From positions 3,973,001 to 4,037,000 of the forward strand of contig NC_016791.1 of assembly GCF_000244875.1 (NCBI RefSeq): a stretch of DNA of 64,000 bases, in the 5' to 3' direction. The notes under the pieces are model-generated. The model was not told the origin of the DNA. It was given only the letters and a program-made list of their open reading frames with translations, and searched no databases. Below, one piece after another: positions 11,682 to 56,814 of this stretch. The stretch's first letter is position 1; every line of letters starts with the position of its first letter. This DNA comes from Clostridium sp. BNL1100. GTDB taxonomy: Bacteria > Bacillota > Clostridia > Acetivibrionales > DSM-1351. The position numbers and the translations under genes are program-made.

Positions 11682-13130
11682 TTACATGGTCATAGTAAAA
11701 TTTTCGGCTTGCTCCTGTACCGGGCGCTGAGAGGGTGCTTCCAGTGCAAGGAACATCTGAGCCTTCACACAATCCAACGCAAGCTTCAAATAGGAATTCA
11801 GAAGTGCTTTTTGCTCGTCCAGCGTACGGATTCCGCTTGCCTGAGATTGCTGGGTTACCGCCTTTATATCTGTCCGGATATCCTCCGCTCTTGTGCGCAT
11901 AAAACCCCGATCCTGATGTGGTTTGTATTCCGATTGGAGCCAGGTGACCACCTGTTCCATAAGAACCGGCCTCTCCATCTGCCTACAAAGTTTCTGTATG
12001 GAAAGCAGAACGCCAGCCGCTGTGAGCTGCAGCTGCAAGCTGATGTGCTCTGTGTTCTGAGCGGTCAGCTTTCCAGCTGCAAGCAGGGGCTTGAGCTTTT
12101 CGAATTGTTCCGTCAGCATGGCAGAGGCATCCTTTTGGGCCGAATTGAACTCACAGATATCTAGTAGCTGGGAACACATTTGTGGCAGCAGCTCCAGCTT
12201 CGGATGCTCCCCCGCAGGAATGGGTGTAATCCCATGCTTTGCCTTGAGATCCTCGTTCCAATCCTTAAATTCCGATTGTAAAACTTCGATTTCCATATAG
12301 GCAGGATCGTAGTATCCATGCTCACACAGAATGTCTTTTAATCTTCCGGTCGCTTCAATACCGGCCTCGTCATGGTCCAGGCACAAAACCGGGGTTTTGA
12401 GATGGGGATTCAGCTCCAGCTGACGGAGCATTGCGTGTTCCGACACACCGTCCAGCGTGACATAGCTGTGGTCTTTCCAGTCCTTCAAATGCAGGGTAAT
12501 AAAAGACAGCATATCCACTGGTGCCTCAAACACATAGAGGGTGTCGCTTTTTCCGATCCAGTGGAAGCTGTATTTCGGGTCGCTGCCCTCCACGTTGCCC
12601 TTATAGGGTTCTCCCTTGGTGTAGGTACCACGCTTGTGGGCATGCCGTGGAACCCCGTTTTCATCCAGCCCTGTGAATACCGCATTGTGATATTCCTTAT
12701 CCTCGTAGATCAGTTTTTCGTGCGCAAAGTGCGACAGCACCTCATGGCTGATAAACCGTTGCTTGATCAGATAGGCAAACACCCGGCGCATGTCCGGATT
12801 AGCCTCTGGCAGCGCAAAGGCTTTGCGGGGAGGCGGAGCGCTCTTGACAGTCTGATTCCACTCCACACCGGACTCGCCGCCGAGGAGAAACTGTACCGCC
12901 TCGGGGAAGCTGAGGTCATAGAACTGCTGCACAAAATCAATGGCGTGACCGCCTTCCTTTCTGGAATGCCGGAACCATTGGCTTCCGCGCACAGTCACAC
13001 TGTCATACCGTTTCCACCGCCACTCCCGCCCGGCGCGGGTAAGCTGCTCACCCTGCCGCTGGAGGAAGTCCACCAGATCCACCGAGTTGGCCCGTTGTTT
13101 TTGCTCATCGGTAAAATGAATATACGCCAT
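11682..13130 (-). CDS. DUF3991/TOPRIM-domain protein (primase-like mobile element protein)
   Basis: 482 residues. The N-terminal 90 residues resemble a primase zinc-finger-like module (WFRHSRKEGGHAIDFVQQFYDLSFPEAVQFLLGG), followed by the DUF3991 region (YLIKQRFISHEVLSHFAHEKLIYED). A TOPRIM fold follows (LYVFEAPVDMLSF ... TPVLCLDHDEAGIEATGRL). Such proteins accompany relaxases and may act in plasmid-strand synthesis or DNA processing. The C-terminal half is helical. It ends in ENFTMTM, a member of the shared C-terminal tail group. The start has AAAGGAGGTG. It lies between the relaxase and virD4. Confidence 0.8.
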   Translation of the reverse strand: MAYIHFTDEQKQRANSVDLVDFLQRQGEQLTRAGREWRWKRYDSVTVRGSQWFRHSRKEGGHAIDFVQQFYDLSFPEAVQFLLGGESGVEWNQTVKSAPPPRKAFALPEANPDMRRVFAYLIKQRFISHEVLSHFAHEKLIYEDKEYHNAVFTGLDENGVPRHAHKRGTYTKGEPYKGNVEGSDPKYSFHWIGKSDTLYVFEAPVDMLSFITLHLKDWKDHSYVTLDGVSEHAMLRQLELNPHLKTPVLCLDHDEAGIEATGRLKDILCEHGYYDPAYMEIEVLQSEFKDWNEDLKAKHGITPIPAGEHPKLELLPQMCSQLLDICEFNSAQKDASAMLTEQFEKLKPLLAAGKLTAQNTEHISLQLQLTAAGVLLSIQKLCRQMERPVLMEQVVTWLQSEYKPHQDRGFMRTRAEDIRTDIKAVTQQSQASGIRTLDEQKALLNSYLKLALDCVKAQMFLALEAPSQRPVQEQAENFTMTM

Positions 13131-13148
13131 ATAAAATCACCTCCTTTG

Positions 13149-13280
13149 TCAGCGCTTGCGTTTCCCGCAGCGCCGAAAAAAGGCCACCCGCTGATGAACG
13201 GATGGCCTGTACGACAGATGATTGAGTTTTGCGGAAAGCGGTTCTTTTTTCTGTAGCTGTTTTGTATATTGTTTCTGCAT
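13149..13280 (-). CDS. Possible 43-residue basic peptide between relaxase and TOPRIM genes
   Basis: ATG at 13280 follows GGGAGGG with good spacing and opens 43 codons (MQKQYTKQLQKKEPLSAKL..., ending GKRKR). The second half encodes a strong terminator-like hairpin, so it may be a leader peptide tied to attenuation and not a working protein. Lys and Arg make up about a third of the residues. I do not recognise the family. Confidence 0.4.
   Translation of the reverse strand: MQKQYTKQLQKKEPLSAKLNHLSYRPSVHQRVAFFRRCGKRKR
13175..13207 (-). terminator. Terminator or attenuator between relaxase and TOPRIM genes
   Basis: On the minus strand a long stem starts GGCCATCCG and closes CGGGTGGCC, followed by six Ts. 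It lies inside the possible small ORF and just before the TOPRIM gene, so it could limit read-through into virD4. Confidence 0.7.
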
Positions 13281-13297
13281 GGAAACCCTCCCTTTCG

Positions 13298-16200
13298 TTA
13301 ATAGGTTTGCTTGAGTTCGTGATCGTCCGGGGCGTGACCCTGGGCAATCTTTTTCTGTCTGAGTTTGCGGCGCAGTTTGCTGTCCACCTGCATACCGGGA
13401 CCTCCGGGGAGCTTTCGCTGTTCTTCATGAAAAATCCGGCTTAAGTGATGCAGAAGTCTTGTCGCCGCAAGAAAAAGAGACGGATCACGGAAGGAGTCCA
13501 GATGGTCGAGAAAAAACTGTGCATAGATGTTTCCCTGTTCTGCTGACAGGGTAAGCCACCGGATAGCTGCTTCCCGGTCATGGGGTACATCTCTGCCCAT
13601 AAGGTACAATTTACCGGTGGCATATTGTGCGTACTGATTGCCTTGCTCCGCGGATGCGGTCAGCCATCGGATCGCAGATGCCACATCTTTGGGAACATCC
13701 TCTCCCGACAGATACAGCTTGCCAAGCCTATACTGCGCATACTGGTTGCCTTGCTCTGCGGATGCAGTCAGCCATTTCACAGCGGATGCCACATCCTTGG
13801 GGACATCCTCTCCCGACAGGTAGAGCTTGCTGAGCTGATACTGAGCGAATGAATTGTTCTGCACTGCTGCCTTCGTGAACAGTTCCACCGCCTTTGGAAT
13901 GTTTTTCGGAATAACCTCACCGGAAAGATACAATTTTGCTAATGCATACTGTGCAAACTGATTTCTTAGGTCTGAGGAAAGCGTCAGCCATTTCATGGCG
14001 GACTCCACGTCTTTGGGGACAGCCTCATCCAGCAGGTAAATCTTGCCGAGAGCATATGCCGCATAGGAATTGTCCTGCTCCGCCGAGAGGGTGAACAAAG
14101 AAATAGCTTTCTGTATGTCTTTCTCAACATGGCTCCCGTCCCGGTAGAGCTTCCCGAGGGCGTATTGCGCCAGGTCATTGCCGTTTTCTGCGGCTTTCGT
14201 CAGCCATAGAATGGCTTGCTCTATATTCTCATGGCCGCTTTCCGTATCCAGATAGATTTTACCGAGCATGTACTGTGCATGAACGTTGCCGAGGCGGGCA
14301 GCCTTTTCAAAATACCCGATGGCTGCTTCCACATCTTTTTCCGTCCCTGTCCCGGTGTAGAGCATGTGTCCCAGGCGGTACTGGAGTTTATCATCGTGAC
14401 TCTGTTCCTCCAGACTTTGAAAACCGTAAAAGGCTTCCTCGAAGTGCAGCTCCGCATCTTCTGCATTCTTTACGGTACCTACACCGTCCCGGTACATTTT
14501 CGCCAGCTCATAATCGGCATACGGCACACGCTGTCTGGCAGACCTGCGGTACAAATCGAAGGCGGTTTCAAAGCTCTGTTCCACGCCCTGTCCCCGGTAA
14601 TACAATCCGGCAAGGGAGTATTGGGCATATTTGTGGTTTTGCGAGGCCGCCAGTTCAAACCAGCCGGCCGCTTCCTCGTAGTCCTGCGGTGTGCCAAGCC
14701 CCGCCGCGTACATTTTACCTATGCGATATTCCACATAGCGGTGCTTTTTCTCCGCTTCGATATCCTGAAATACGTTAAGAGCCTTGTGATACCAGCCGAA
14801 TGCAGTATCGGCATCCATCTCCACACCGAGTCCATCTGCATACATCCTGCCGAGGTCATGCATGGCGAGGGCGTTGTTTGCTTCCGCTTCCTCCAAAAAT
14901 AAGCGGAGGGCCTGCTCAAAGTCCGGCTCCGTGTCATCGCTACCATAGAGAAACGTGCGGGCCTCCTTGTAGCGGTCACTCCATTCGATATGGGGCTTGC
15001 CGGAAGCATTCTCATTGGATTCCGGGCGGGATGAATGCTCCGAAACAGAAGGCGGCATATCCTCGCCATCTTCCAACGGTTCCTCAATGGCCGGCGGTTG
15101 ACTTTCCTCCGGCATCACGGAATCGGATTCTTCGTTTGCGGATTCCGCTTCTTCCTTTAATAATTGGTCTGCACTCTCATCGTCCTCAAAAGTAAAATGA
15201 TGACTGCCGATGTTCATGGCTTCCGCGATCACCATATTTTTGAGGTTCTTAAACTCTTTCTGCTGTGAGAGAGGCAGCGGATCGGGGAGCTTATCCTTGT
15301 AGGTTCGAAGCACTTCATTGCGAAGCTCCTGCCACTTGGCGTAGGCTTCCGCTACCCGTGTATCCTTTGCCAACTCATCCACGATCTGATTGACGATGGC
15401 TTTTAAGGGTGCTTTAAGATAGCCGTACTGCTTTCTCCCAGCGGTGTGCTTCAGGCGCTCTGCAAGTTGTGACAGCAGATCCTCCACAGCAGTATTCTCA
15501 CAGGCTCCCGACTGCATTTGCACCAGGATATCCTGCAGCGCATCCCGGCTCTGTTCGGTAAGCGCATTCCTTTGAACGGTCTGGTCGGAATAAATCTGAA
15601 TGAGATCCTGCTGAAAGATTTCCCTTGCCAGGCCGCTCCGCATATTATCAATGGCAGACTTGCTGACATACCCTTTACGGGGATCGGCCGAATAAACAAT
15701 CATATGGCAATGGGGATGATGCCCTTCGTTGTGAAAGGCCGCATACCAGCGCAGGTTTTCCGGAGCAATCTTCATTTGCTCGGCAAACACATTCCGCTGC
15801 TTGCGCAACAGTGCCATCCACGCAGCGGCGTTATCATAACCCAGCCGTGCGGCGTCCTCCCGCTGCAGAGAAATAATTGGCGTCCACACGTTTCCGGTGT
15901 GACTGCCGACTTCCTCTGCGACCTTTGACAGCACCAGCGGAGCATCCTCATCGGAAAACAGTCCGTGCGCTCCCAGCTTCTCCGCGCGGGGACGGGTGGC
16001 AATGTAATTGACATAAACCTCCTGATGGGCCAGCTGATCCAGGTTCTGATCCAATGCGGCGGTGATGAATTCCGAAGCGTTTTCCACGGTCGGCTGTTTC
16101 AGGTAATCTTCGTACTCAAATAAATCAGCCGTGTCGGGAAACTGCGAGAGAACGTTTGCCATGAGCTCCTTCTGCTTTTTTGAAGCGGGCAGTTTCCGGT

Positions 16201-16312
16201 TGCCCGGAGGGATTTTTTCCACGCCCTCCCGTGTCGCAATGTAGGTCACCAGATTTTCCAGATGCTCCGCGGCGTTTTTGATATACCTGCACTTGAAGAT
16301 TATCCGCGGCAT
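13298..16312 (-). CDS. MobP-type relaxase with a long C-terminal Sel1-repeat domain
   Basis: 1004 residues. The N-terminal 320 residues are a relaxase of the MobL/MobP3 kind, with the metal-binding three-His motif HNEGHHPHCHMIVYS (His194 to His203) that nicks oriT and carries the strand. A linker rich in Glu and Ser (about 385-440) follows. Roughly 13 Sel1/TPR-like repeats of about 36 residues run from about 455 to 965, with signatures such as AQYALGKLYLSGEDVPKDVASA. The last few copies are nearly identical. The tail is basic. Sel1 arrays usually bind proteins, so the tail may dock the relaxase to the transfer channel or to the tagged accessory proteins (inference). It follows the ribbon-helix-helix gene by 2 bp. 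Confidence 0.88.
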   Translation of the reverse strand: MPRIIFKCRYIKNAAEHLENLVTYIATREGVEKIPPGNRKLPASKKQKELMANVLSQFPDTADLFEYEDYLKQPTVENASEFITAALDQNLDQLAHQEVYVNYIATRPRAEKLGAHGLFSDEDAPLVLSKVAEEVGSHTGNVWTPIISLQREDAARLGYDNAAAWMALLRKQRNVFAEQMKIAPENLRWYAAFHNEGHHPHCHMIVYSADPRKGYVSKSAIDNMRSGLAREIFQQDLIQIYSDQTVQRNALTEQSRDALQDILVQMQSGACENTAVEDLLSQLAERLKHTAGRKQYGYLKAPLKAIVNQIVDELAKDTRVAEAYAKWQELRNEVLRTYKDKLPDPLPLSQQKEFKNLKNMVIAEAMNIGSHHFTFEDDESADQLLKEEAESANEESDSVMPEESQPPAIEEPLEDGEDMPPSVSEHSSRPESNENASGKPHIEWSDRYKEARTFLYGSDDTEPDFEQALRLFLEEAEANNALAMHDLGRMYADGLGVEMDADTAFGWYHKALNVFQDIEAEKKHRYVEYRIGKMYAAGLGTPQDYEEAAGWFELAASQNHKYAQYSLAGLYYRGQGVEQSFETAFDLYRRSARQRVPYADYELAKMYRDGVGTVKNAEDAELHFEEAFYGFQSLEEQSHDDKLQYRLGHMLYTGTGTEKDVEAAIGYFEKAARLGNVHAQYMLGKIYLDTESGHENIEQAILWLTKAAENGNDLAQYALGKLYRDGSHVEKDIQKAISLFTLSAEQDNSYAAYALGKIYLLDEAVPKDVESAMKWLTLSSDLRNQFAQYALAKLYLSGEVIPKNIPKAVELFTKAAVQNNSFAQYQLSKLYLSGEDVPKDVASAVKWLTASAEQGNQYAQYRLGKLYLSGEDVPKDVASAIRWLTASAEQGNQYAQYATGKLYLMGRDVPHDREAAIRWLTLSAEQGNIYAQFFLDHLDSFRDPSLFLAATRLLHHLSRIFHEEQRKLPGGPGMQVDSKLRRKLRQKKIAQGHAPDDHELKQTY

Positions 16313-17371: not shown

Positions 17372-17656
17372 TCACAGGTGCATTTCAGGAGCCTGAACAG
17401 GGTAGTCCTGAGAGGGCTCGCCTGTAAGCAGATACCAGTTCCCATCGATCTCATTGTAATTGCAGTTTTCGACAATCTGGTCCTTCAATTCCTCCCAGGG
17501 GATTGGAATTTCCGTACCCCGCACACCCGCATGAGCGGATAATTCGGTCAATGGTAGATTGGGTGAGATAGTAACATAACCGCCGGGTGACATTATCTGG
17601 ATCATGTCGTGAGGATGTTCCTGCACAAACTGTTCCAGCGTAATCGGTTCTTTCAT
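17372..17656 (-). CDS. Small conserved ICE protein of unknown function
   Basis: 94 residues, unrecognised. It starts MKEPITLEQFVQEHPHDMIQIMSPGGYVTI and has an acidic middle with WEELKDQIVENCNYNEIDGNWYLL. It ends QAPEMHL, a weaker variant of the C-terminal tail on other ICE proteins. Its start overlaps the stop of the upstream gene by four bases and has GGAGG, so the two are translationally coupled. It is the last gene of the partition cluster. Confidence 0.65.
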   Translation of the reverse strand: MKEPITLEQFVQEHPHDMIQIMSPGGYVTISPNLPLTELSAHAGVRGTEIPIPWEELKDQIVENCNYNEIDGNWYLLTGEPSQDYPVQAPEMHL

Positions 17657-19150: not shown

Positions 19151-19510
19151 TTACATGCTCATAGTCATGCCCGGAGTTTCTTCTTCGCCGGGGCCTTCTG
19201 CTTCGGTCTGCGCTTCCGGAGAAGGAGGTATTTCAGGCGCAGCCTGCTCCCGCTGACGGCGGGTCTGACGCGCTGGACGTTCTCTGGAGGCAGGAGTCTG
19301 TTCAGCCTCCGATGCCTGCTCCTGTGCAGGAGTCTGTTCCATGCGGCTCTCCACGTACTCTCTTACTTGAGTGGGAACTACCTTCTCATAGGTCTTGTCG
19401 AGGTAATCCTTCAACTCCTGCTCAATGGTCTGTTCCTTTTTCTCCATGAAAAAACGGAGGGCATCCAGCCGCTCCGAAGGGAAAAGGACTTTTAATTCAG
19501 TCGTACTCAT
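19151..19510 (-). CDS. Small ICE protein (DUF6103-like) with acidic linker and PGMTMSM tail
   Basis: 119 residues. The N-terminal 55 residues (ELKVLFPSERLDALRFFMEKKEQTIEQELKDYL then TYEKVVPTQVREYVESR) are a helical domain shared with the 61-residue protein at 17653. A disordered Glu/Gln/Pro/Ala linker follows, and the protein ends in PGMTMSM. It is one of the clearest examples of the linker-plus-tail architecture repeated across the ICE. It sits just upstream of parM and may be cotranscribed with it. Function unknown. Confidence 0.75.
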   Translation of the reverse strand: MSTTELKVLFPSERLDALRFFMEKKEQTIEQELKDYLDKTYEKVVPTQVREYVESRMEQTPAQEQASEAEQTPASRERPARQTRRQREQAAPEIPPSPEAQTEAEGPGEEETPGMTMSM

Positions 19511-19522: not shown

Positions 19523-20428
19523 TTATAATTTCAGGGTCATACCGGGTTCATCCGGCTCCGGTCTAACCCAGGTTTCATAATCTTCATTGGGGCAATCCCC
19601 AGCCAACATCAGAGAAAAATCAGCGAGACGCTGGGGATCTACTCCTGCGCATTCCGCCTGAATACCATAAATACCATGAAACACACGCACCACCTGTGTA
19701 TTCAAAACATCGCCCCATTCCTGTTTTCCGGCATCGGTTAGGGTGTCGGAAGCCAGGTATACGATGGTGGCCGGCTCCATGTCCACCTCATGATGAACAA
19801 GGTGGAAATCCTCAATAGGTACCCTGATTAAATCTTTTAAGCGAAACACATCGTCGGGAATTCCGGAGGAGAGCTTTTCTTTCTCGTCGAGATTCGGACA
19901 GTAATCGAGATAGAAGGTCATGTCATAGCCATCCTCCATCGGTTCCACTTCCGCCATCTCCGGTCTTGCTTCCATGATGGAAAGCAGCATAGCACCGATA
20001 CCGTTGTCAAAGTTAAGGGTGGCATCGTACTGCTCTTTGATCTCATCAAAATAAACAGCCCATGTGCCATTGGAGGTATTCTGTGTACCATCCCTGATGA
20101 TCTGGTCTGCGAGCTTACCCAACCGAACCGTGATAAAATCTCTTGCCCCCGGCAGGAGGCTGGCATACCTGGCATAGTCATATCCTTCACTCTGAATAAG
20201 AACACCCTCGGAATTATTTTTTTCCAACACCAGTAAACAATGATTCAGGCCGTTTCCATCCATCAGCATGAAGTCCGCACTCTCTGCAATAAAGCCGGTA
20301 TCCCGGAGCAGATTGTTTTTGAACTGCCGGTATTCTTCTTCCGACAATTCCACAATTTTTTCAATCACACAGTCCCTTACGGGGAATTCATTGGTCTTTC
20401 TTTCAAAGACTGCCTGTAAATTCAGCAT
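19523..20428 (-). CDS. Conserved ICE protein of unknown function with GMTLKL tail
   Basis: 301 residues in two parts. Residues 1-105 form an alpha/beta domain (IVELSEEEYRQFKNNLLRD, then a GLNHCLLVLEKNNSEGVLIQSEG segment). The rest contains LNFDNGIGAMLLSIMEARPEMAEVEPME and IYGIQAECAGVDP. It ends PDEPGMTLKL. I do not recognise an enzymatic motif. Homologous proteins are common in clostridial ICEs and are annotated only as DUFs. It has an AAGGAG ribosome site and lies 12 bp before the DUF6103-like gene. Confidence 0.7.
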   Translation of the reverse strand: MLNLQAVFERKTNEFPVRDCVIEKIVELSEEEYRQFKNNLLRDTGFIAESADFMLMDGNGLNHCLLVLEKNNSEGVLIQSEGYDYARYASLLPGARDFITVRLGKLADQIIRDGTQNTSNGTWAVYFDEIKEQYDATLNFDNGIGAMLLSIMEARPEMAEVEPMEDGYDMTFYLDYCPNLDEKEKLSSGIPDDVFRLKDLIRVPIEDFHLVHHEVDMEPATIVYLASDTLTDAGKQEWGDVLNTQVVRVFHGIYGIQAECAGVDPQRLADFSLMLAGDCPNEDYETWVRPEPDEPGMTLKL

Positions 20429-21966: not shown

Positions 21967-22470
21967 TCACCACCATTTCTGGCCGAACAGATTGCCCTGC
22001 TCCGGTTCCTGCTCCTGCTGTTCCTGTGCCAGCTGGACGGATCTCTCCACGGCCTGTTCCAGAATTTCGGTATCAAAGCCTGCGGTTTTATAACCCTCCA
22101 TAATGACATTTAGGTAGTAATCCGAGGGGGAACCGTAGGGATGGCCCTCATTCATGATATAGACCATGGCGGGAACCGTCCTGCCTTTCAGCTCCACATC
22201 GAGGATCTCCTTGCGGTAAAGATGGGGATATCCTTCATAGCGGTCGAGAGCCTGCAGATCCCTTTCCTTTAACGTCCACAGAAGAACAGGGACGGTGGAA
22301 CCCTTAAGCGGCTCCACCGTTGCGACAGAGTTTCTCCGGCTGCCGCAGAACAGCAGCCCGTAATCCTTTATTTCGCTGGCGCCGACCACCTTGGCGGTAG
22401 GGCAGCGGAACGCCATCTGCGGCAGGTTTAGGTTGCTGCCGTAGGCAATGTACAGCATTTCTGATTTCAT
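21967..22470 (-). CDS. Gamma-glutamylcyclotransferase-like (AIG2/GGCT) protein
   Basis: 167 residues. The GGCT-fold signature IAYGSNLNLPQM starts the protein. EGYPHLYRKEI holds the expected catalytic Glu region (about residues 80-90). These enzymes cyclise and release gamma-glutamyl groups. The neighbouring gene encodes an amidoligase, and the pair recurs in mobile elements; comparative-genomic work has proposed such pairs act in peptide tagging. Here one could attach and the other remove an amide-linked group. The C-terminal tail is Gln/Glu-rich and ends FGQKWW, not the Met tail. It has an AAGGAGG ribosome site. Confidence 0.75.
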   Translation of the reverse strand: MKSEMLYIAYGSNLNLPQMAFRCPTAKVVGASEIKDYGLLFCGSRRNSVATVEPLKGSTVPVLLWTLKERDLQALDRYEGYPHLYRKEILDVELKGRTVPAMVYIMNEGHPYGSPSDYYLNVIMEGYKTAGFDTEILEQAVERSVQLAQEQQEQEPEQGNLFGQKWW

Positions 22471-22507: not shown

Positions 22508-23560
22508 TTACATGCTCATAGAAAGACCGGGGCTTTCTTCTTCAGCCCCGGTCTGTTCCTGTTCGTTTTCAATTGTTTGCTCCTGCTGTTGCGATGCTGC
22601 TTGTGCCGCTTCGGCCAGCTCTTTTTCTTTTTTCTGTCTTAATCGTTCCTTTTGCTGGAGTGCCTGCGCTGGGTCCTTCCACGCAATACAGCCGTCCAGA
22701 TGCTCCAGCAGGTGAAGCCGGGCGGTTTTGTATTCATCACCGATGAGCCCCAGCCGCAGGAGCCATGTGCGGAAGGTGTATTTTTCATTCGAACTCTTTG
22801 TCTTTTGACGGCTGGCACATCGTTGGTTGAGGGCCTGTGCGGAGATCGCAAGGCAGAGCTGAATGTATGCCTTGATCTTGCCGGCGTGAGTAGTGCTGTT
22901 AAACAGCCTGAATTCAATGGTACCTTTCTGGAAAACCGAGTGAAGGTTTAAACAGTGGTACCGGCTGTCGTGGTAGTGCTCAGAGCGACCGTCGCGGCCG
23001 TTGTACCAGATGCGGCTTACCTCGTCCAGCGTGTGGGGCTTTTTCCGGTTGATCTCGTCGAGAAAACTCTGCTCCACCTTCCTGCAATACTGCCGCTCTC
23101 TTGCTACCTCCACCTGCATGGCCTTGTAAATCAGATCCTCCTTGGAAGCCATGATGTTGGTGATGTTTCTAAGTGTACCCGCGTTATACGGAGAAGCGTC
23201 AATATGGATGTGGATGCCGCACTTATTATTTACAATTGCGCCTGCCGCACGGAGCTTTCTTACCAGCTCCTGAATGGTTTCTATGTCCTCATACCGGCAA
23301 ATGGGGGTGACCATCTCTGTTTTATACTCATCCGAGGCCTCGGTTATCGTTCTTCCAACCTTCCGCTGGGCAGTGATACTGCTGTCGTAGGTAAATTTCC
23401 ACTTGCGGTTCTGTTCATCCAGCGCGGAATATGTTGCGTAAAAAGTACCGTCATAATGGGAAACTGTTCCGAAATGGGATGCAGCTATTTCAGCGGCCTC
23501 TTTCCTCGTTATACCGGTCATTTCAACTTCAACCCCGAAGCGCTGCTCTTTCATGTCCAT
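22508..23560 (-). CDS. Amidoligase (carboxylate-amine ligase fold) with PGLSMSM tail
   Basis: 350 residues of the Amidoligase_2 family, a relative of glutamine synthetase and gamma-glutamyl ligases. Visible marks: RFGVEVEMTGITRKEAAEIA at the start, CGIHIHIDASPYN in the middle (metal/ATP ligands), and GTIEFRLFNSTTHAGKI. It would form an amide bond between a carboxylate and an amine at ATP cost; the substrate is unknown. After the enzyme domain (to about 295) comes a Gln/Glu-rich linker and the tail PGLSMSM. It is the partner of the cyclotransferase-like gene 37 bp downstream. Confidence 0.82.
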   Translation of the reverse strand: MDMKEQRFGVEVEMTGITRKEAAEIAASHFGTVSHYDGTFYATYSALDEQNRKWKFTYDSSITAQRKVGRTITEASDEYKTEMVTPICRYEDIETIQELVRKLRAAGAIVNNKCGIHIHIDASPYNAGTLRNITNIMASKEDLIYKAMQVEVARERQYCRKVEQSFLDEINRKKPHTLDEVSRIWYNGRDGRSEHYHDSRYHCLNLHSVFQKGTIEFRLFNSTTHAGKIKAYIQLCLAISAQALNQRCASRQKTKSSNEKYTFRTWLLRLGLIGDEYKTARLHLLEHLDGCIAWKDPAQALQQKERLRQKKEKELAEAAQAASQQQEQTIENEQEQTGAEEESPGLSMSM

Positions 23561-23578: not shown

Positions 23579-24076
23579 CTACAACATCTGCATTCCGCCC
23601 ATGCTGTTTTTGATCTCCAGTGCCTCCTGAATGGAAGCTTCGCAAGCCTCACTCATCCAGTTGTAGATTTCATCCCGCCGCCAGGAATCCAGAAGGTGAT
23701 TGCCTGTTTTCTCATCCAGCATACTGATTTCAGACCACGCTTTGTCAGCGAGGGCTTTAGCCGGAGGCAGATGTCCTTCTGCGCAGCCCTCGGTCAAGCC
23801 GTCAATAAATCGGTCCATGACAGCAGCCAGCTCATCAATTTCCTTTTGGGAGTAAAAGGGTTCCCAGGCTTCAGGCCGGTCATAAGGTTGGCCAGTAATA
23901 CACTTTGCCAGTTCCTCTAACAGCTCCGCCTTGTCCACACCACCCAGCTCATCGTTCAGATAGGAACGCATAAAGCTGTAAATATCAGCTTCCCGGTTGT
24001 CAGCCGGCGTAATGCTGCCGAGGGCATCTTCGAGGATATACTGCTTATTTTCCTTGAATTCTTCCAGCCTGCCCAT
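23579..24076 (-). CDS. Helical ICE protein of unknown function with GGMQML tail
   Basis: 165 residues, acidic and mostly helical, with no motif I recognise. It starts MGRLEEFKENKQYILEDALGS and includes LNDELGGVDKAELLEELAKC. It ends KNSMGGMQML, another member of the shared C-terminal tail set. The start overlaps the VirB4 stop (TAATG), so it is translationally coupled to the transfer ATPase. It lies between VirB4 and the amidoligase. Confidence 0.7.
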   Translation of the reverse strand: MGRLEEFKENKQYILEDALGSITPADNREADIYSFMRSYLNDELGGVDKAELLEELAKCITGQPYDRPEAWEPFYSQKEIDELAAVMDRFIDGLTEGCAEGHLPPAKALADKAWSEISMLDEKTGNHLLDSWRRDEIYNWMSEACEASIQEALEIKNSMGGMQML

Positions 24077-33308: not shown

Positions 33309-33361
33309 GGTCTAGTAATCTCTTTGCACTGCATTACATCCGATTGTGGATGCGAGATCAA

Positions 33362-46272: not shown

Positions 46273-46689
46273 TTAAAGTCCCGCCATCTGCATGCCGGAA
46301 TGCTGCTCCGGCGCTTGATCAAAAGGGGGCGCGTCAGCCGCCTTTGGCTGGTCTTGACTCTGGCTTTGGGTGAGCGCCTGATGGTAGGCATCGATCACTG
46401 CGTTATTCAGCTGTTCCCTGAATTCCTTGGTAACCGGGAAGCAGATGTCCTTGTACTCGTTGCCCGCGCGGTAGCTGGGCATAGCAACGAATAATCCTTT
46501 GGAGCTGTCCACCACCCTCACATTGCGGATGGCGAAGCAGTCGTTCAGGTTAATGGATGCATAGGCCCGGATGTTACCCTCTGGGCGGATGGAACCGATT
46601 TTGACGTCTACCTTCATGGGCATGGGCTGCCCGGCTGCGGTCTGTGCAGATTCCTGCGGGGTCTTGGCTGCGGCTTGCGGTTTACTCAT
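46273..46689 (-). CDS. spoVG: SpoVG-family protein with GMQMAGL tail
   Basis: 138 residues. The core (VDVKIGSIRPEGNIRAYASINLNDCFAIRNVRVVDSSKGLFVAMPSYR) is clear SpoVG, a small RNA/DNA-binding regulator usually chromosomal in Firmicutes. N- and C-terminal extensions rich in Gln, Ala and Pro are added, and the end HSGMQMAGL matches the ICE tail group loosely. It is first in line before the Tad cluster and may regulate it (inference). It has a GGAGG ribosome site. Confidence 0.85.
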   Translation of the reverse strand: MSKPQAAAKTPQESAQTAAGQPMPMKVDVKIGSIRPEGNIRAYASINLNDCFAIRNVRVVDSSKGLFVAMPSYRAGNEYKDICFPVTKEFREQLNNAVIDAYHQALTQSQSQDQPKAADAPPFDQAPEQHSGMQMAGL

Positions 46690-46750: not shown

Positions 46751-47311
46751 TCACAGGTTCATCTGCGGGCCTTGCAGCTGCTCCTGTTCGGACGCCTGAA
46801 ATGAAATCTCCCGGAATCCAAAGCGGTCGACATAGTGGAAGGAGCTGCCGGATTCATCGTACAATTCCACCACATCCGACATGGAGAGGCTGTGCCCCTC
46901 ATAGCCGGACGGGTGGTCAAGGTTGAATTTGGCGTACAGTTCTTCCAGATCATTGGTTTCCACTTCGCCGTCATAAATCACCAGGTAATTGTCCGGGTCG
47001 GGTTCCCCGAACTCTTTTTGCAGCTCGTCATACCCGATGAATTTCATCATGACGTCTGTGTCGGGTTTCAGCTGCCAGACACGGCAGTTTTTAAGTACCT
47101 GCGCATTGCCCTCCTGGTCGATGCTGCCTTCCGCCAGCCGTGCAAAGGTACCGTTTTTCCATTCCACGTCCAATCCTTTCTTTTCTGAAAGATAGGACTT
47201 CATCTCATCGGTCTGGAACATGGGGTCGACAATGGCCCTGCCTTTTTCGATATAGCCAGCGGTATTGCCATAGTAAAGAATACGGTTATTTTTGATCTGA
47301 ATACTGTTCAC
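46751..47311 (-). CDS. YodL-domain-like ICE protein with GPQMNL tail
   Basis: 186 residues from a GTG preceded by AAAGGAGG; the longer frame overlaps the surface-protein gene. The segment GHSLSMSDVVELYDESGSSFHYVDRFGFREI (about 140-171) is the pattern of YodL-type domains that recur in clostridial mobile element proteins. The N-terminal half has no recognised motif. It ends QEQLQGPQMNL, a tail-group member. Function unknown. It follows the 1550-residue surface protein. Confidence 0.7.
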   Translation of the reverse strand: MNSIQIKNNRILYYGNTAGYIEKGRAIVDPMFQTDEMKSYLSEKKGLDVEWKNGTFARLAEGSIDQEGNAQVLKNCRVWQLKPDTDVMMKFIGYDELQKEFGEPDPDNYLVIYDGEVETNDLEELYAKFNLDHPSGYEGHSLSMSDVVELYDESGSSFHYVDRFGFREISFQASEQEQLQGPQMNL

Positions 47312-47349
47312 GAAGCTTCCTCCTTTCCCGGTAAAACTGCCGTTACCCG

Positions 47350-50300
47350 TTACTGAAAATAGAATGCGACGGAGTACGTGATGTTGCTTTTGTTGTACAT
47401 GCAATCATGGTTTGTGTAGTAATAAAACTCCAATTGGCTGTAGAGTCCGGGCGACAGGCTGCGGCTGAAGGTGATGCCGTTGGTCGTTGTGCCGTAATCC
47501 AGCTGATCCCATTGGCCCGTCAATATGTTATAGCCGCGGACACGACCAAAGTCCTGTCCTGAGTGCCCGGAAACAGGCGGAACCGTAAAGGTGTAATTGG
47601 TTATGGTCGCACCCGCAATGCCCTGTTCCAGGATTACTGACTCTGGCCCGGTGAGCGTCATGCCGCCGCCTCGATTGGGGTCGGCAACGAAGAACACAAT
47701 AGCTGTCCATGGAGATTCAGCGCCGGTAGAGTCCACTGCCTTCACGCGAACCACATTTTTGCCCAATGGATAGGCAGTGCTGGTTTGTGCCGGACGGCCT
47801 TCCCAAATATAAGTGATGGCATCTCCATCGGGGTCGGTGCTTGCGGCTGTGATGGTAATAGCTACGCCTGGTGCAATGCTGTTGCCGTCAGGAGTACGGG
47901 TGATGACAGGGGTCGATGGAGCGGAATTGGAAACGGTAAAGGTGATATCCGTCCAGTCGGAGTACAGCCCCCAGGCGTCTTTTGCCCTGACCTTCACTGT
48001 ATGGGCACCCACAGCATAGTAGCTGTCGGAGGTGTTGCCGGAGTATTCCAAGGTCACAGTGTCACCGTCCGGATCGGTGGCATAGGCTGAGAAGTTCACC
48101 AACAGTTTGCCAGCCTTCGCGGTTCGGGTTACCGATGCGCTTCCGGTTGGTTTATTCGGTGCGTTGTTGGTGATGGTGATGTTCTGCGAATAGGTGAAAG
48201 TTCTTCCGGTGCTGTCGGTAGTGCTGGCAGTTAGGACATAGCTTCCGGTACTTTGGATAGCAATGGTCCCACCGCTGCCCGTGAGGCTTCCAGTGTAGCC
48301 AGCCGCACTTCCGCCCTTGGTCAGCGACCAATTAAGAGTCCTGCCCTCCAGTCCGGAGGTTCCCGGCAGAGAAACGTAAAAGCCGGAGCCGATATGTGCG
48401 GAGGAAGGAACGGTAAACGGGAAGCTGGCAATGGGCTTGACCAGTCCTGCATTAGAGGTGAAAGTGAATCTGCGCCCATTGGTATCAGTGACCACTGCCT
48501 GCAGCTTCACGGAAACGGTTTTATCCGTATGGAACCACAGAGTGCCACCGCTGATTCCGAGGGAGCCGGTTGCATATTCCGTGTAGGGCTTTGCCTCGCC
48601 ACCATCCACTGAAAGGAGCCAGTCAGCGGCTGCTCCGCTCAGCTCAGTACCGGAGGCAGTGACCGCCATGGACTCACCGCTGTAGGTCAGCGATGGTACG
48701 CCAATGCTCATGGTTGGAATGGGGTACACCGTGAAGCTCTGACTTCTGGCAAAGGTTCGGCCGGTCGGGTCTGTCAGAGTGAGGATCAGTTCATACTGTC
48801 CTTTCGAGGGGAAGGTCAGACTGCCCCCTGCTTTGGTCAGGGTCCCGGAGGCATAAGCAGTATAAGGCTTCGCGCTACCGTTTCCCTGAATGACCGACCA
48901 GTCCGCGGTAAGGCTCTCCAAGTCCGTGCCGCTGACACCGACCGTTGCGGCTTCTCCGGCATACCATGTCTGCTGGACGCTGAGTGAAACAGACGGGATG
49001 GGATAAACCATGAAGCTCTGGCTTCTGGTAAAGGTTCGGCCCGTAGGGTCCGTCATAGTGAGGATAAGCTCGTACTGTCCCTTCGACGGGAAGGTCAGGC
49101 TGCCGCCCTCTTTGGTCAGGGTACCGGAGGCATAGGCAGAATAAGGCTTTGCGCTACTGCTTCCCTGAATGACCGTCCAGTCCGCAGTGAGGTTCTCCAG
49201 ATCCGTGCCACTGACACTAACGGTTCCGACTTCTCCGGCGTGCCAGGTCTGCTGGACGTTGAGTGAAATTGAAGGAATGGGATAGACCGTAATACTCCGG
49301 CTCCTGATAAAGGTTCGGCCGGTGGGGTCTGTCATGGTGAGAATTAGCTCGTATTGTCCCTTCGCTGGGAAAGTCAGGCTGCCGCCTGTTTTCGTCAGAG
49401 TGCCGGAAGTGTAGATGTCATACGGTTGTGCGCCGCCGTCACCCTGGATGATTGTCCAGTCCGCGGTGAGATTCTCCAAGTCCGTGCCGCTGACACTGAC
49501 GGTTCCGGCTTCTCCGGCATGCCAGGTCTGCTGGACGCTGAGTGAAATTGACGGGATCGGATAGACCGTAGTGGATGCACTATAGGAGAACACTCTGCCC
49601 AACGCATCCGTCATGGAGGCCGTTAGGATATAGCTCCCGACATCTTTAAACTGTATTTTACCGCCGTAGGCATTCAGGCTTCCTTCCAAAGCATCGGAAG
49701 TTTCCACAGACTCTCCGTCTTTGGTAAGCGACCATTCCACCGGCAGCACGTTGTTTTTACCGCGGGTCCGAAGGTCAACGGTACGGTCGGTATGGGTCGA
49801 TTCGGGAAGCTCGAAAGAAATGTTCAGCACCGGCAGGACTTCGATCTTGCCGCCGTTTTCGAACAGGAATACTCTCCCTATTTCATCGGTGATTCTCGCA
49901 ATCAACTCATAGGCACCAGCATGCTTGAATCGGATAGAACCGCCGCTGTTATCCAGAGTTCCATCGACATAAGTCGCAAAATCCTGGAATCCAAAGCCGT
50001 TCTCTAACAGCCATTCCACTTTTAAACCGTCTAATTCCAAGGTTTCTGGAATCACGGAGACGAGGGTGTCGGTATGGGCGGTTTCCGGTAGCTTGTAGGT
50101 GATGCCGGGAACGGGATATACCTTGATCGGCGTAGTATAGCTGTAGTTTCTTCCCGCGGGGTCAGTAAAGGCGGCTTTCAGCACATATTCGCCCTTTTCT
50201 TTGAAACGGACGGTGCTGTCCGTGTCGGTGAGTTTCCCCTCCATGTAATCGGCAACGGGAACGGATTCTCCATTTCTGGTCAGCGACCATTGGATTTCCG

Positions 50301-52087: not shown

Positions 52088-52675
52088 TCATAGCTTCAGT
52101 TCCATGCCTCCGCTTTGCTCCTGCTCCCTGCGGTACGATTCCATGGCCTCCTGTGTCGGGTAGATAAGCTTTCCGTCCACCATCTCAAAAATGCAGAAGT
52201 CCTCCCGGTCGCAGACCATGATCTTGTGCTGGTAGTCCTTCTGCATGTCAATGTAGTCCTTGACCTCCTGCGCACTGCACAGCCAGACACCGGTGGTGTA
52301 GCGTCCGTCCGGCAGATAACAATAGCCGCTGTATTGCGGCTCATGGTTTTTCAAATCCAGCGCTCCCACGGGACGAATCTGTGACAGCTGGAGTCTGGCC
52401 TGATCGGACAGGATCTCCGGCTTTGCAATACCGAACACGTCACTCCGGTTCCAGCGGATTTTTTCTCCTTCCGCCAGGGAAACGGTAAAGATTGAGCGGC
52501 TGATGGGATTAGGATTGCTGCCGTTTCCTCCGGTGCAAAAGTACAGCTGGTGTTTTGCCTCCCGGCAGTCCTCCGGCAGTGCGGAAGGATGCAGGACAAT
52601 GACCTTTCCGCTGATGGGCATGTCATATCCGGTCTGTAAGCAGTCCTCCTGAGAAAATAATGTTTTTTCACTCAT
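52088..52675 (-). CDS. ICE protein of unknown function with GGMELKL tail
   Basis: 195 residues from the ATG at 52675; the longer frame is a shadow of the AbrB gene. It starts MSEKTLFSQEDCLQTGYDMPISGKVIVLHPSALPEDC. The middle (LYFCTGGNGSNPNPISRSIFTVSL) is Cys/Gly/Asn-rich, and the C-terminal half resembles a small alpha/beta domain (KIMVCDREDFCIFEMVDGKLIYPTQEAMESY). It ends EQSGGMELKL. Not a family I can name. It overlaps the AbrB gene by 8 bp. Confidence 0.68.
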   Translation of the reverse strand: MSEKTLFSQEDCLQTGYDMPISGKVIVLHPSALPEDCREAKHQLYFCTGGNGSNPNPISRSIFTVSLAEGEKIRWNRSDVFGIAKPEILSDQARLQLSQIRPVGALDLKNHEPQYSGYCYLPDGRYTTGVWLCSAQEVKDYIDMQKDYQHKIMVCDREDFCIFEMVDGKLIYPTQEAMESYRREQEQSGGMELKL

Positions 52676-52961
52676 GACGCTGCCCCTTTCTCTGCTCGAT
52701 GAGTTCCAGCAGCCGTGCAGCGATGGCGATCTGTGTGCCCTCCGGCATCTCACGGATAGCGGCATGGACAAAGGCTTCCACCGCCTCCGGCGATTGATCA
52801 CCCACCTCGATGAGATCCACTTTTTTGATGCTGATAGTTCCCTGGCTGATGCCCAGCCTGACAATATCACCATAGTCCATGCCAGAGGAGGATCGGAGTT
52901 CTTTGGGGATCAGGACACGCCCCTTGCCGTCTACGATTTTGTAAATAGGCTTTGCTTTCAT
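52668..52961 (-). CDS. AbrB/SpoVT-type transition regulator
   Basis: 97 residues. The swapped-hairpin DNA-binding domain is clear (IYKIVDGKGRVLIPKELRSSSGMDYGDIVRLG, residues 6-37). The C-terminal half is helical and could oligomerise. It lies second in the leftward operon after an acidic AbrB-like protein, with overlapping stop/start (ATGA). It probably regulates the transfer or surface genes. Confidence 0.85.
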   Translation of the reverse strand: MKAKPIYKIVDGKGRVLIPKELRSSSGMDYGDIVRLGISQGTISIKKVDLIEVGDQSPEAVEAFVHAAIREMPEGTQIAIAARLLELIEQRKGQRHE

Positions 52962-54372: not shown

Positions 54373-54377
54373 TTTGA

Positions 54378-54581
54378 TCACCTGCCTTTGCTTCGGAGGT
54401 TAATTTTCTCCATATCGGTTTTCATACAGGAGCCGTCTGCGCTCCAGCAGATAAATCCAACGCCGGGATAGGGACAGCCCTCGCAGCGGGAGGGATCTTT
54501 TGGCGGCGGCACGACGTACTTTTTTGGCGGGCCGGTCACTCCCGCGCCTGTCTTTTGTTCTGGGGTTATATCATAGTTCAT
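54378..54581 (-). CDS. Small Cys-containing ICE protein
   Basis: 67 residues. A Pro/Lys-rich first half leads into SRCEGCPYPGVGFICWSADGSCMKTDM, with four Cys (CxxC then two more) spaced to bind zinc or an Fe-S cluster. The stop overlaps the region just before dam (5-bp gap). Unrecognised family; it may be a small zinc-ribbon partner of the methyltransferase. Confidence 0.65.
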   Translation of the reverse strand: MNYDITPEQKTGAGVTGPPKKYVVPPPKDPSRCEGCPYPGVGFICWSADGSCMKTDMEKINLRSKGR

Positions 54582-54667: not shown

Positions 54668-55870
54668 TTACAGCATCTGCTGACCAAGTGCGGGACTTGA
54701 ATATTCCAGAGTCATCTCCCGGTTGCCCAGCCGGATTATGCCATAGGGCGTAGCGCAAATATTTGCTTCCTTCATCAGATCAGAATCGCATCGGGAGAAA
54801 TGAATGTGCTTGAGCATTGGATCATCTTCCGGGATGTGATATCGTTTCAGGAATTCCTGCCTGGCGTAATCTTCAGGGGAGGACAGCTCCGGATAAAAAT
54901 CAAAGCAATCCATGTTCTGTGTAATATCAAGGGCCAGGTCGATATCGGTACAGTCCATCAGCTCAAGAGCTGCTTTGAACTTCGCTTCCTGACCTTGGCA
55001 GCGGAGTTCATAAATCTTTTCTGCCAGCAGCTTTATTTTTTCGATGTCCTCATAGTCACCAAACACACCATTTAATTTGGGGACAGAGCTTTTATTGGTA
55101 TACACCACGCATCCATCAAAATTTTTAATGCCCTGTTCCTTTAATACTTCCGATATCTCATCCGGTGTAGCGGGCAGTTTAAGTATTGTACATTCGTCAA
55201 TATCCGACGGATAAAATGTACCATCACATACCAGGAGTTCAAAGACATAGTTCTCCAGGAAAGATTGCTCCGGCAAGTGGATACCATCATAAACTGTTTC
55301 CCAACTCCCAGAGCCATTTACTACATAAAAATCGTTGTGAAAGATACCACCTTCCGCTTCCTGACGCGCACGACCGATTTTTTCATAGTCCAGCAAGTCC
55401 AGAAGCTCCTGCTGATATTCTGGAGGTACATGATTGACCGCATCTATAAAATCATTGTCGACATAGAATTTGCCGAGTTCCCGATCATTTTTAGCAGGTA
55501 CTGCATGAGCATCACCAAGATTGTATGTTTGGTTGATCAGGTCATGCATTGCCAGATTGCCCTCGCCCACTAACGCACAGCCGGTGAAGGCGATGCGGTC
55601 ATGCTCGCTCAACTCACTTATACGGTATGCAAGGAAGTTCAGCTCAGCAAGAGGAGGATTTTCTGGAATAAAACTCAGTTCCTCTCCCTGCATATTGAAG
55701 CACTCCACAACCTGATATGGCTGATCATCTGTGACTCTTGCACGATGTAGTGCGTCCTGTATTTCGTCCCGGCTTGCGGGGAGTTTCAGATATGCGCCGG
55801 AGTATGCGGGCGCGTCGTACAGGTCCGACCGCATCAGTGTCACAGTCATCACCTTTTCCTTTTCTGACAT
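54668..55870 (-). CDS. ArdA-like antirestriction protein with LGQQML tail
   Basis: 400 residues, acidic. It shows an internal duplication (LKLPASRDEIQDALHRARV near 28 and LKLPATPDEISEVLKEQGI in the second half). The segment MHDLINQTYNLGDAHAVPAKNDRELGKFYVDNDF resembles the ArdA-type DNA-mimic proteins of Firmicutes elements. ArdA blocks type I restriction on entry, so early position in the operon is sensible. It ends ALGQQML, a weak tail-group member. Homology is judged by eye, so it could be another DUF of similar build. Confidence 0.55.
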   Translation of the reverse strand: MSEKEKVMTVTLMRSDLYDAPAYSGAYLKLPASRDEIQDALHRARVTDDQPYQVVECFNMQGEELSFIPENPPLAELNFLAYRISELSEHDRIAFTGCALVGEGNLAMHDLINQTYNLGDAHAVPAKNDRELGKFYVDNDFIDAVNHVPPEYQQELLDLLDYEKIGRARQEAEGGIFHNDFYVVNGSGSWETVYDGIHLPEQSFLENYVFELLVCDGTFYPSDIDECTILKLPATPDEISEVLKEQGIKNFDGCVVYTNKSSVPKLNGVFGDYEDIEKIKLLAEKIYELRCQGQEAKFKAALELMDCTDIDLALDITQNMDCFDFYPELSSPEDYARQEFLKRYHIPEDDPMLKHIHFSRCDSDLMKEANICATPYGIIRLGNREMTLEYSSPALGQQML

Positions 55871-55929
55871 TGATTATCTCCTTTCTGAAATAAAAAAAGC
55901 GCCCTTCAGTTTTATAAAACCAAAAGACG

Positions 55930-56256
55930 CTACATGTTCATCTGCATCCCCTGATCAGGATAGAGGATGGCGAATCTTGCGTTTTGCAGATTTGTAACCG
56001 CATTACTTTTCAAGAATTCGGGATGAGATTTAAGCCACTGGAGATCTTCGACGGTTGCATCTTGAGGTTCCCCCTCGCCATAACGGAAGGATTTAACCGC
56101 CACTGTGATGTATTCTGAACCGCCGCAGTCCTCAACCAGTTCTTTATATAGCTGGGAGTTTTGTATGTCCTCCACTTCGGGAACCCCACTCATGAGTCCA
56201 ACGTCGCGGATGCCAGTGTTGGTTTCCAGGCCGATGATGGAAAATATCTTGCTCAC
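55930..56256 (-). CDS. Small ICE protein of unknown function with GMQMNM tail
   Basis: 108 residues from a GTG preceded by GGAGG. Starts MSKIFSIIGLETNTGIRDVGLMSGVPEVEDIQNSQLYKEL; the end is YPDQGMQMNM. No motif recognised. It follows the 170-residue gene immediately (stop and start adjacent), so both are translated together. Homologous proteins are likely in related ICEs, but I cannot name the family. Confidence 0.68.
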   Translation of the reverse strand: MSKIFSIIGLETNTGIRDVGLMSGVPEVEDIQNSQLYKELVEDCGGSEYITVAVKSFRYGEGEPQDATVEDLQWLKSHPEFLKSNAVTNLQNARFAILYPDQGMQMNM

Positions 56257-56769
56257 TTACATTCCTCCCATCATCGGACCGCTGTAACCGAGAGCGGGAG
56301 CGCTGTTTTTCATTTCCTTCTCCGGCTTGATGGAGTAATTCTCATCATTCCAGAGGCTGACATAAATCTCGCCGTCTGGCGTTTTGATAGGGCGCTGTTC
56401 TAGGCTTTCCCCGAAGCCATCTGCATTTTGTCCAACCACAAAATTCAAAAGCTCGGCTGTTTCCTCACCAGAAAGAGCTTCTGTTAGCCCGGCGGTCATG
56501 ACTCCCCACAGCTCACCATCGCAGACTTCCACGGATGGATACAGGCTGTGTACCTTTTCCTTCAGCGCATCCTCATGGATGTATTCCGCAAGGCCGCGGT
56601 CATTTTTAAATTGCCGGTTCTCTTTGACGATGGCAGCGAGGATAGCATCTTCATAAGAGACAGCATCTGCAGGGGTGATTTCCACCGGATTGTCCTCCAC
56701 TCCATACTCGCCCTGGGGGTAAGTCACGATCTTCAGAGGGAAAAAGATACGCATTGTTTCGTTTGCCAT
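56257..56769 (-). CDS. First gene of the ICE operon, unknown function, GPMMGGM tail
   Basis: 170 residues, from the ATG preceded by GGAGG. Acidic alpha/beta protein (ITPADAVSYEDAILAAIVKENRQFKNDRGLAEYI; YPSVEVCDGELWGVMTAGLTEALSGEETAELLNFVVGQNADGFGESLEQRPI). The end SAPALGYSGPMMGGM is a loose tail-group member. It is the rightmost ICE-type gene and follows a hairpin in its leader. Proteins like it are common in clostridial elements as DUFs. Confidence 0.68.
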   Translation of the reverse strand: MANETMRIFFPLKIVTYPQGEYGVEDNPVEITPADAVSYEDAILAAIVKENRQFKNDRGLAEYIHEDALKEKVHSLYPSVEVCDGELWGVMTAGLTEALSGEETAELLNFVVGQNADGFGESLEQRPIKTPDGEIYVSLWNDENYSIKPEKEMKNSAPALGYSGPMMGGM

Positions 56770-56814
56770 TTCGGTTTCCTCCATTCTTTTTCGCCACATC
56801 AGGCAATAAAAAAA

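Follow-up and report, generated by a model that had tools for sequence, protein, structure and literature searches.

A C-terminal Met/Leu tail common to unrelated proteins of a clostridial conjugative element and to relaxases of small mobilizable elements, and its probable role as a translocation signal

An integrative and conjugative element (ICE) of Clostridium sp. BNL1100 encodes 13 proteins that end in a common short tail of alternating Met or Leu residues, which probably serves as a translocation signal read by the coupling protein of the element. The window, meaning the whole 64,000-nucleotide stretch of DNA that was analysed, corresponds to positions 3973001-4037000 of the 4.61-Mb single-contig genome (NC_016791.1). 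The ICE spans approximately 9.8 to 56.8 kb of the window, and its genes include those for a Toprim primase-like protein, for a coupling protein of the VirD4 type and for a MobL relaxase that contains Sel1 repeats. Other genes of the element are taken to encode VirB4, PrgI, VirB6 and a Tad-like set, names that derive from a preceding sequence-only reading and from general knowledge. The VirB4 protein matches a Sinanaerobacter chloroacetimidivorans protein at 100% identity. A second, related ICE resides in the same genome 20 to 60 kb upstream of the window (3913001-3953000; loci L001 and L002). All 13 C-termini that the sequence-only reading had quoted were recovered, with unchanged residues and gene positions, as follows (window coordinates).

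11682..13130, minus strand: DUF3991/Toprim primase-like protein, C-terminal ENFTMTM
17372..17656, minus strand: 94-aa protein, tail QAPEMHL; second-ICE orthologue QAPELRL
19151..19510, minus strand: DUF6103 protein, tail PGMTMSM; C-terminal half unstructured in the predicted model
19523..20428, minus strand: DUF6329 protein, tail PGMTLKL; most of the long and short forms found elsewhere carry a tail
22508..23560, minus strand: Amidoligase_2 protein, tail PGLSMSM; predicted-model confidence below 50 at residues 325-350
23579..24076, minus strand: 165-aa protein, tail GGMQML; relatives of about 30% identity mostly end in W (HRMW, KKLW)
28948..29736, minus strand: DUF7768 protein, tail PGMKLQL; many homologues begin near residue 77 of the open reading frame (ORF)
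46273..46689, minus strand: SpoVG paralogue with a C-terminal extension, tail SGMQMAGL
46751..47404, minus strand: YodL protein, tail QGPQMNL
52088..52873, minus strand: protein without a Pfam match, tail GGMELKL; second-ICE orthologue EGMELKL
54668..55870, minus strand: ArdA-domain antirestriction protein, tail ALGQQML
55930..56256, minus strand: 108-aa protein, tail QGMQMNM
56257..56799, minus strand: 180-aa protein, tail SGPMMGGM, with GMQGMSM and GMEMNMNM at the ends of its larger homologues in L098 and L113

The owners of these tails match the Pfam families DUF3991 plus Toprim, DUF6103, DUF6329, Amidoligase_2, DUF7768, SpoVG, YodL and ArdA, and five have no Pfam match. Each tail was scored with a leave-one-family-out profile, trained on the other families only, against a background of 328 independent chromosomal C-termini from the same genome, and a tail was considered to pass at the 99th percentile of this background. 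All 13 exceed that percentile, and thus the six members that had been described as weak (at 11682, 17372, 46273, 46751, 54668 and 56257) stand with the others. Eleven of the 13 exceed every one of the 328 chromosomal C-termini, and the SpoVG and ArdA tails are each matched by a single one. With the full profile at the 99th-percentile threshold, 13 of 46 ICE proteins pass versus 4 of 328 chromosomal ORFs (Fisher P 5e-10), but the leave-one-out figures are the fair ones because the 13 families also train the full profile.

Pattern searches lead to the same view. A regular expression for the tail matches 11 of the 46 ICE proteins and none of 581 chromosomal ORFs drawn from 36 stretches that together cover 0.72 of the 4.61 Mb, and it matches at 37 of 12,373 internal positions (0.3%) of those ICE proteins. 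Against a first background of 252 chromosomal ORFs, the expression found none there versus 9 of 78 called window ORFs, and a looser ending, [ML]x[ML], found 3 versus 8. A scan of the whole genome at the DNA level, restricted to Met and HTG-type Leu codons, yielded nine matches versus none for the control: two in the window ICE, one in the second ICE and six elsewhere, of which five lie at no ORF end and one ends a 57-aa ORF that is overlapped by a longer one. The sequence-only reading had recognized that an equal frequency of the tail among chromosomal proteins of the host would count against it, and the profile scan and the regular expression both find the chromosome to differ. The shared tail is confirmed as real, and it proves to be a larger phenomenon than first stated.

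One further ICE protein approaches the pattern.

30550..31557, minus strand: AbiEii toxin-family protein, tail-like end EGTEQRML, located past the best AbiEii profile match (residues 1-317 of 335)

Its end, EQRML, scores 4.86, slightly below the threshold of 4.92, and AbiEii was the sole named match in a PADLOC scan of ten proteins. Separately, closer homologues of a small protein at window 40191-40568 end in (G)-V-R-[LM]-C, which is reminiscent of the tail except that the last residue is Cys; this protein scores -6.3 and was not counted.

The tail is retained in orthologues from other ICEs, whose lack of it had been the second outcome set against the observation. Within the same genome, diverged orthologues encoded by the second ICE repeat the tails of the window (window/second ICE: ENFTMTM/ANFIMTM, PGLSMSM/PGLSMNM, GPQMNL/GPAMNM, GGMELKL/EGMELKL and GQQML/GQQML). 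More broadly, homologues with at least 30% identity over at least 40% of the window protein were collected from 80 VirB4-anchored loci of named genomes and judged by the leave-family-out threshold. The tail passes in 61 of 66 amidoligases, 25 of 36 DUF6329 proteins and 17 of 29 DUF7768 proteins, and in minor fractions of cyclotransferases (4/64), a short DUF6103 paralogue (2/21) and the 165-aa protein at 23579 (1/9). It is nearly absent from channel and transfer parts (VirB4 0/79, VirB6 0/63, PrgI 1/73, MobC 0/60) and is not found in several other ICE proteins (o26014 0/73, NlpC 0/67, Maff2 0/51, Dcm 0/30). Within the window itself, VirD4, VirB4, PrgI, VirB6, the Tad proteins and MobC all score below 0, in agreement with the original remark that dedicated channel parts lack the tail.

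What is conserved is alternating hydrophobicity at positions -1, -3 and -5 from the C-terminus. Among 63 amidoligases, the hydrophobic fractions at -1 to -6 are 0.90, 0.10, 0.89, 0.19, 0.89 and 0.10, and DUF7768 proteins alternate likewise (0.95, 0.15, 0.95, 0.05, 0.95 and 0.00; n=20). In 19 DUF6103 proteins, selected by identity and coverage and not by tail, the fractions are 1, 0, 1, 0, 1 and 0. DUF6329 proteins are hydrophobic at -1 and -3 (0.86 and 0.86), with only 0.41 at -5 (n=22), and DUF3991 proteins exhibit no alternation when anchored at the last residue (n=14). The last residue itself varies among Met, Leu and Tyr. A conserved Met in two alignments was not taken as evidence because their members had been drawn from a list of tailed ORFs, and a concerted change involving Phe at -5 in amidoligase versus DUF7768 (table 5, 12, 1, 21; P 0.07) is not claimed.

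These measurements bear on the possibility that the tails were spread by recombination among the 3' ends of element genes, or persist through shared ancestry or drift, with no selected function. Neighbouring genes do carry tails repeatedly, and exchange may have affected some of the 3' ends. However, the DUF6103 tails have greater identity (0.78) than the linkers that precede them (0.54), and the amidoligase tails retain a hydrophobic pattern near 0.9 even though their identity is just 0.39, compared with 0.71 for the domain. Moreover, DUF6329 proteins stop near either residue 185 or about residue 300 of the window protein, and most representatives of both forms are tailed with different strings (for example, SPEMQMNL at length 197 and PGMTLKL at 301). 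DUF3991 proteins likewise occur in two forms, most of them tailed, with GFEMKMA at about 313 aa for the short form and QGMKLSM at about 472 aa for the long one; a few members of these families lack a tail. We therefore consider an origin without selection to be very unlikely.

The predicted structures of the amidoligase and the DUF6103 protein show no secondary structure in the linker or the tail. Confidence in the amidoligase model is below 50 at residues 325-350 and is also poor at 248-300, whereas in the DUF6103 model it is below 50 over most of residues 63-114 and about 50 at the last residues. The linker is rich in Glu and Gln, and few Lys or Arg residues rank among the top residues at each tail position. 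The alternation fits the suggestion that the tail forms a beta-strand on binding to a partner, which would be compatible with a translocation signal.

The tail is also present on some relaxases, including those of small elements. When 391 genomes were scanned at the DNA level for GGNATGNNNATGNNNATGTRA, 45 matches were obtained, versus 9 for the reversed control. Among the 30 matches with loci, 10 end an in-frame ORF, namely DUF6103 proteins (four), a YodL protein, three relaxases, a protein that we take from general knowledge to be GroEL-like, and a 57-aa ORF. The GroEL-like protein, which ends GGMGMGM, was treated as having an unrelated tail, and the 57-aa ORF was taken as spurious. The three relaxases belong to two families, with one of PF03432 type and two of MobL type. 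We then evaluated 66 relaxase ORFs from 80 loci (14 loci without an ORF match were left out) that were not chosen by tail, using a profile trained without relaxases and a threshold passed by about 1% of chromosomal C-termini. Tails were found on 8 of 21 relaxases in the PF03432 clade near L167 and on 6 of 20 MobL relaxases, two of which had already been met in the 391-genome scan. The endings include DHGMGMHM, TPTMKM, GQGFYMQM, EQEMNLTM, GPVMTM, GPQLMM and GPTMTL, and the query L167 ends GGMQMKM; some untailed relaxases end in an Arg-rich sequence.

Fifteen relaxase neighbourhoods of 7-20 kb each, comprising L240, L249 and 13 others whose relaxase ranks first with a clear or weak tail, contain no homologue of the VirB4 or VirD4 of two ICE classes, of VirB6 or of PrgI, although other kinds of type IV secretion system were not sought; the controls L248 and L332 were positive in this search. 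These neighbourhoods therefore look like mobilizable elements that need a helper. The relaxase had the best tail score among all ORFs in 13 of 16 neighbourhoods, a ranking that is illustrative because the neighbourhoods were picked by hand after the tails had been seen (L254 is an untailed control). When 10 further tailed ORFs were scanned, two proved to be Fic/DOC proteins, one of them in a small element of mobilizable type, and another carries an LPD28 polyvalent-associated domain.

Two side observations concern the relaxase genes. MobL and PF03432 relaxases (L175, L208, L211 and the window MobL) share, in part, a KKxAxGHKxDDHE stretch just before the end, which suggests a common signal module across relaxase families. 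The MobL relaxase gene of the second ICE (L001-L002) is present as two ORFs of 811 and 157 aa.

The relatives examined outside these ICEs lack the tail. The chromosomal SpoVG protein of the same genome has 83 residues and ends AILESYKNS, whereas the extension of the ICE paralogue ends GMQMAGL. Amidoligases of about 47-51% identity, and the cyclotransferases beside them, are also untailed; two such loci that were checked (L251 and L253) carry phage terminase genes, and L253 has portal and capsid genes as well. Single-domain ArdA proteins of about 165 aa (L302-L304 and L307), which we presume to resemble that of Tn916, have no tail. Certain other long ArdA proteins have similar ends that fall below the threshold (MKFGGM, MGGMKFE). 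A plasmid collection contained two records with a VirD4 relative at E 1e-60 or better, 65% and 34% identical, and on the plasmid with the 34%-identical relative the DUF3991 protein and the MobP3 relaxase are untailed. The coupling proteins of Tn916 and ICEBs1 are described as lacking the all-alpha substrate-recognition domain that VirD4, TrwB and PcfC possess (PMC9154091; this and all other articles are cited from portions of their text). Set beside the untailed single-domain ArdA proteins, this difference is suggestive.

The amidoligase lies next to a cyclotransferase gene.

21967..22470, minus strand: gamma-glutamyl cyclotransferase, with a different conserved ending, NLFGQKWW

Its ending, NLFxxKWW, is a feature in its own right: 43 of 64 homologues (in L045-L124) end in WW, and the ending is absent from the prophage relatives in L251-L253. 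The sequence-only reading had offered the tail as a possible substrate for this enzyme pair, such that C-terminal modification would be its purpose. The two genes are neighbours and are often conserved, and one of the enzymes, the amidoligase, is itself tailed. However, some tailed relaxases lie in stretches of 7-20 kb that contained no amidoligase homologue, prophages have both enzymes without such tails, and the hydrophobic alternation is kept while the last residue is variable. Modification is therefore disfavoured, and we regard it as the least probable of the explanations considered here.

A Clp-type degradation tag that limits the lifetime of ICE proteins had likewise been proposed, and short hydrophobic C-termini can indeed serve as Clp degrons. 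The tmRNA tag of this host is AKNDNFALAAA, whose ALAAA end bears no likeness to the tail. A host degron would not be expected to take the form of element-class-specific tails common to relaxases, and tails are absent from the sampled chromosome (0 of 581); this proposal is disfavoured as highly improbable. We also rejected a beta-clamp binding motif, considered because of the spacing of QLxLxL-type motifs, since most tails have no Gln.

A more serious alternative is a docking tag that acts in the donor, whereby a beta-strand peptide brings ICE proteins together on one shared scaffold, either VirD4 or some other protein of the ICE or the host, to assemble the relaxosome or to serve regulation, with no translocation. 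The -1/-3/-5 alternation after a low-confidence linker, as in the 63 amidoligases, has the look of a strand-addition peptide, and relaxases are tailed too. Yet the top rank in small elements usually belongs to the relaxase alone, whose partner would have to be provided in trans, all 60 homologues of the relaxosome protein MobC stay below the threshold, and several tailed functions (ArdA, Toprim primase-like and Fic) are expected in the recipient. A role confined to the donor is thus unlikely in our estimation.

A signal read by the coupling protein is the best supported of the four meanings originally listed. Its support includes tailed relaxases of unrelated small elements, a match of some cargo families to known conjugative passengers, and a second ICE family in which relaxase and cargo share a tail. 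Passengers recognized earlier are relaxases, the SogL primase, ParM and FicT toxins (PMC8406263, 2021). One tag that labels relaxases, a Toprim primase-like protein, ArdA and Fic proteins but not the channel parts is what a translocation signal would be expected to look like.

Other mobile elements appear to use other tails. Non-homologous neighbour pairs with very similar C-termini (score of at least 20) number 13 of 10,943 in mobile-element regions, five of them in the window, versus 0 of 4,593 in the chromosome; at a score of 16 the counts are 36 versus 3. The second ICE family (L332/L351), whose VirD4 is about 27% identical to that of the window, has its own tail of the form (D/E)EΦEΦ, found on its relaxase (ELDEMEF), an ArdA-DUF3846 protein (ETDEMEV), RadC (DDMEF) and a 139-aa protein (EEMEM). 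These DEMEF-type ends persist with small changes across five close loci, with L352-L354 retaining them where the genes were found. Among more distant loci of this family, forms such as SKDEELEI, KENEIEM or NSMELE occur, the relaxase may end in SSIEWEE or similar, and certain members are untailed. In L262 and L270, KEMER/KEAER is common to the relaxase and a neighbour. Three proteins of L345 (9359-12032) end in NDLEV, with no relaxase seen in that stretch, and three of L337 (10131-13012), including ArdA and a ParB-N protein, end in GAR. Relaxase-neighbour tail matching in 48 loci outside class 1 gave five at P 0.01 or less, although in one of these, L337, the relaxase is matched to an ORF other than those with the common cargo tail.

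Several results weigh against a translocation signal. The first is the window relaxase itself.

9848..11668, minus strand: VirD4-type coupling protein, the putative reader of the tail
13298..16312, minus strand: MobL relaxase, ending DDHELKQTY, with no canonical tail (score -2.5)

Only 7 of 38 relatives of this MobL protein in class-1 loci pass; some relatives end in TMSL, QDMKL or GQGMKL. A distant relaxase clade has no tail in 25 members. The ICE ParM-like protein, a known passenger type, is untailed (score -3.8). Among homologues of the tailed proteins themselves, only 41 of 77 DUF6103 proteins (with a tailed copy in 39 of 63 loci, and two copies in 14), 5 of 15 DUF3991 proteins and 5 of 28 ArdA ORFs (L320, L321, L322, L330 and L331) are above the threshold. 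Co-occurrence of tailed relaxases with a window-type VirD4 is not enriched: such a VirD4 is present in 4 of the 16 genomes of the first, mostly tailed relaxase group (3 of the 12 with a relaxase above the threshold) versus 4 of the 17 other genomes. Of 39 class-1 loci, only three show similarity between relaxase and neighbour tails at P<0.05, and in L333-L335 and L337 the shared cargo tails are unlike the relaxase, which in L337 lacks GAR. Relaxases without the tail may carry another or an internal signal, as has been mapped for several Gram-negative relaxases (PMC10025392).

On balance, we favour a short exposed C-terminal signal, approximately (G/P/Q)-Φ-x-Φ-x-Φ-COOH with Φ mostly Met or Leu, that would be presented on a flexible linker rich in Glu, Gln and Pro and might adopt a beta-strand when bound. 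Its reader would be the VirD4-type coupling protein of this ICE class or a partner of VirD4. Soluble accessory proteins (DUF3991/Toprim, ArdA, SpoVG, YodL, amidoligase, DUF7768 and others) would then be delivered to the recipient with the relaxase-bound DNA, where they could protect and establish the incoming element. Small mobilizable elements with the same signal on their relaxase could use a coupling protein that reads it. Because the tails of other ICE families differ, this one may serve to address an element class.

A broader generalization is more tentative, with slightly less than an even chance of being correct. Clostridial conjugative elements might employ a family of short, class-specific C-terminal address codes (GMxMxM, (D/E)EMEF, KExER, and perhaps NDLEV and PxxxGAR) on the relaxase or on an entire anti-defence and establishment set. 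A single coupling protein would thereby export a particular group of proteins together with the DNA, and small parasitic elements would hitch a ride by reproducing the code on their own relaxase.

If the tail is indeed readable in this manner, the translocated payload of many ICEs could be predicted from sequence alone, and the DUF families that bear it would gain a probable site of action, the recipient at entry. It would also explain how small mobilizable elements pick a helper, provide the proposed delivery of anti-defence proteins from ICEs to recipients with the address signal it has lacked, and bear on substrate choice by Gram-positive coupling proteins.

Other features of the region can be noted separately. 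A NiCo riboswitch (Rfam RF02683) resides inside the ICE at window 33361-36100, directly 5' of a gene that we presume to encode a P-type cation ATPase. Adjoining the ICE, at window 1094-9005, is what we take to be an arsenic-resistance-like set, with a two-domain ArsA-like ATPase and ArsD-, Acr3-, ArsR- and ArsM-like proteins. Dam-type methylases (window 53416-54381 and L002) carry a Q-x-x-L/I-F string near the C-terminus (SQMNLF and TQLGIF, respectively), which presumably resembles a DNA-clamp-binding motif.

No prior description of such a tail was found in the open-access literature, as judged by titles and the beginnings of abstracts, and the tail goes unmentioned in passages of PMC5512222, PMC5313138, PMC12857230, PMC12624023, PMC10025392, PMC8406263, PMC11288057, PMC9154091 and PMC7251119. 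Known signals nonetheless offer parallels. Those of the Agrobacterium VirB/D4 system are also C-terminal and are present on relaxases (VirD2 and MobA) and effectors (PMC10025392, PMC11288057; a title cited in PMC8406263), but they are positively charged, whereas the window tail is uncharged and hydrophobic. The C-terminal signals of Dot/Icm (type IVB) systems are the RalF-type hydrophobic C-terminus and the E-block; in contrast, the ICE tail is an alternating Met/Leu triplet that occurs in Gram-positive ICEs on both relaxases and accessory proteins and differs by element class.

The BID domain of rhizobial and Bartonella relaxases and of the FicT toxin VbhT is a precedent for one signal on a relaxase and on a Fic passenger of a conjugative element. 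This signal is common to the TraA relaxase and VbhT, and the toxin gained it by terminal reassortment (PMC5675462). BID, however, is a domain with a positively charged tail, whereas the ICE tail comprises about six residues and is distributed over a dozen families; no BID domain is among the Pfam matches of the scanned proteins, and the tails have no secondary structure in the predicted models. Finally, the polyvalent proteins of conjugative elements and phages, which have been proposed to be transferred with DNA, have an overlapping repertoire that includes YodL, Toprim primases and LPD domains (PMC5512222). A search of that article's text gave no match for 'secretion signal' or 'C-terminal tail', and a tail of the kind described here would supply such proteins with an address.

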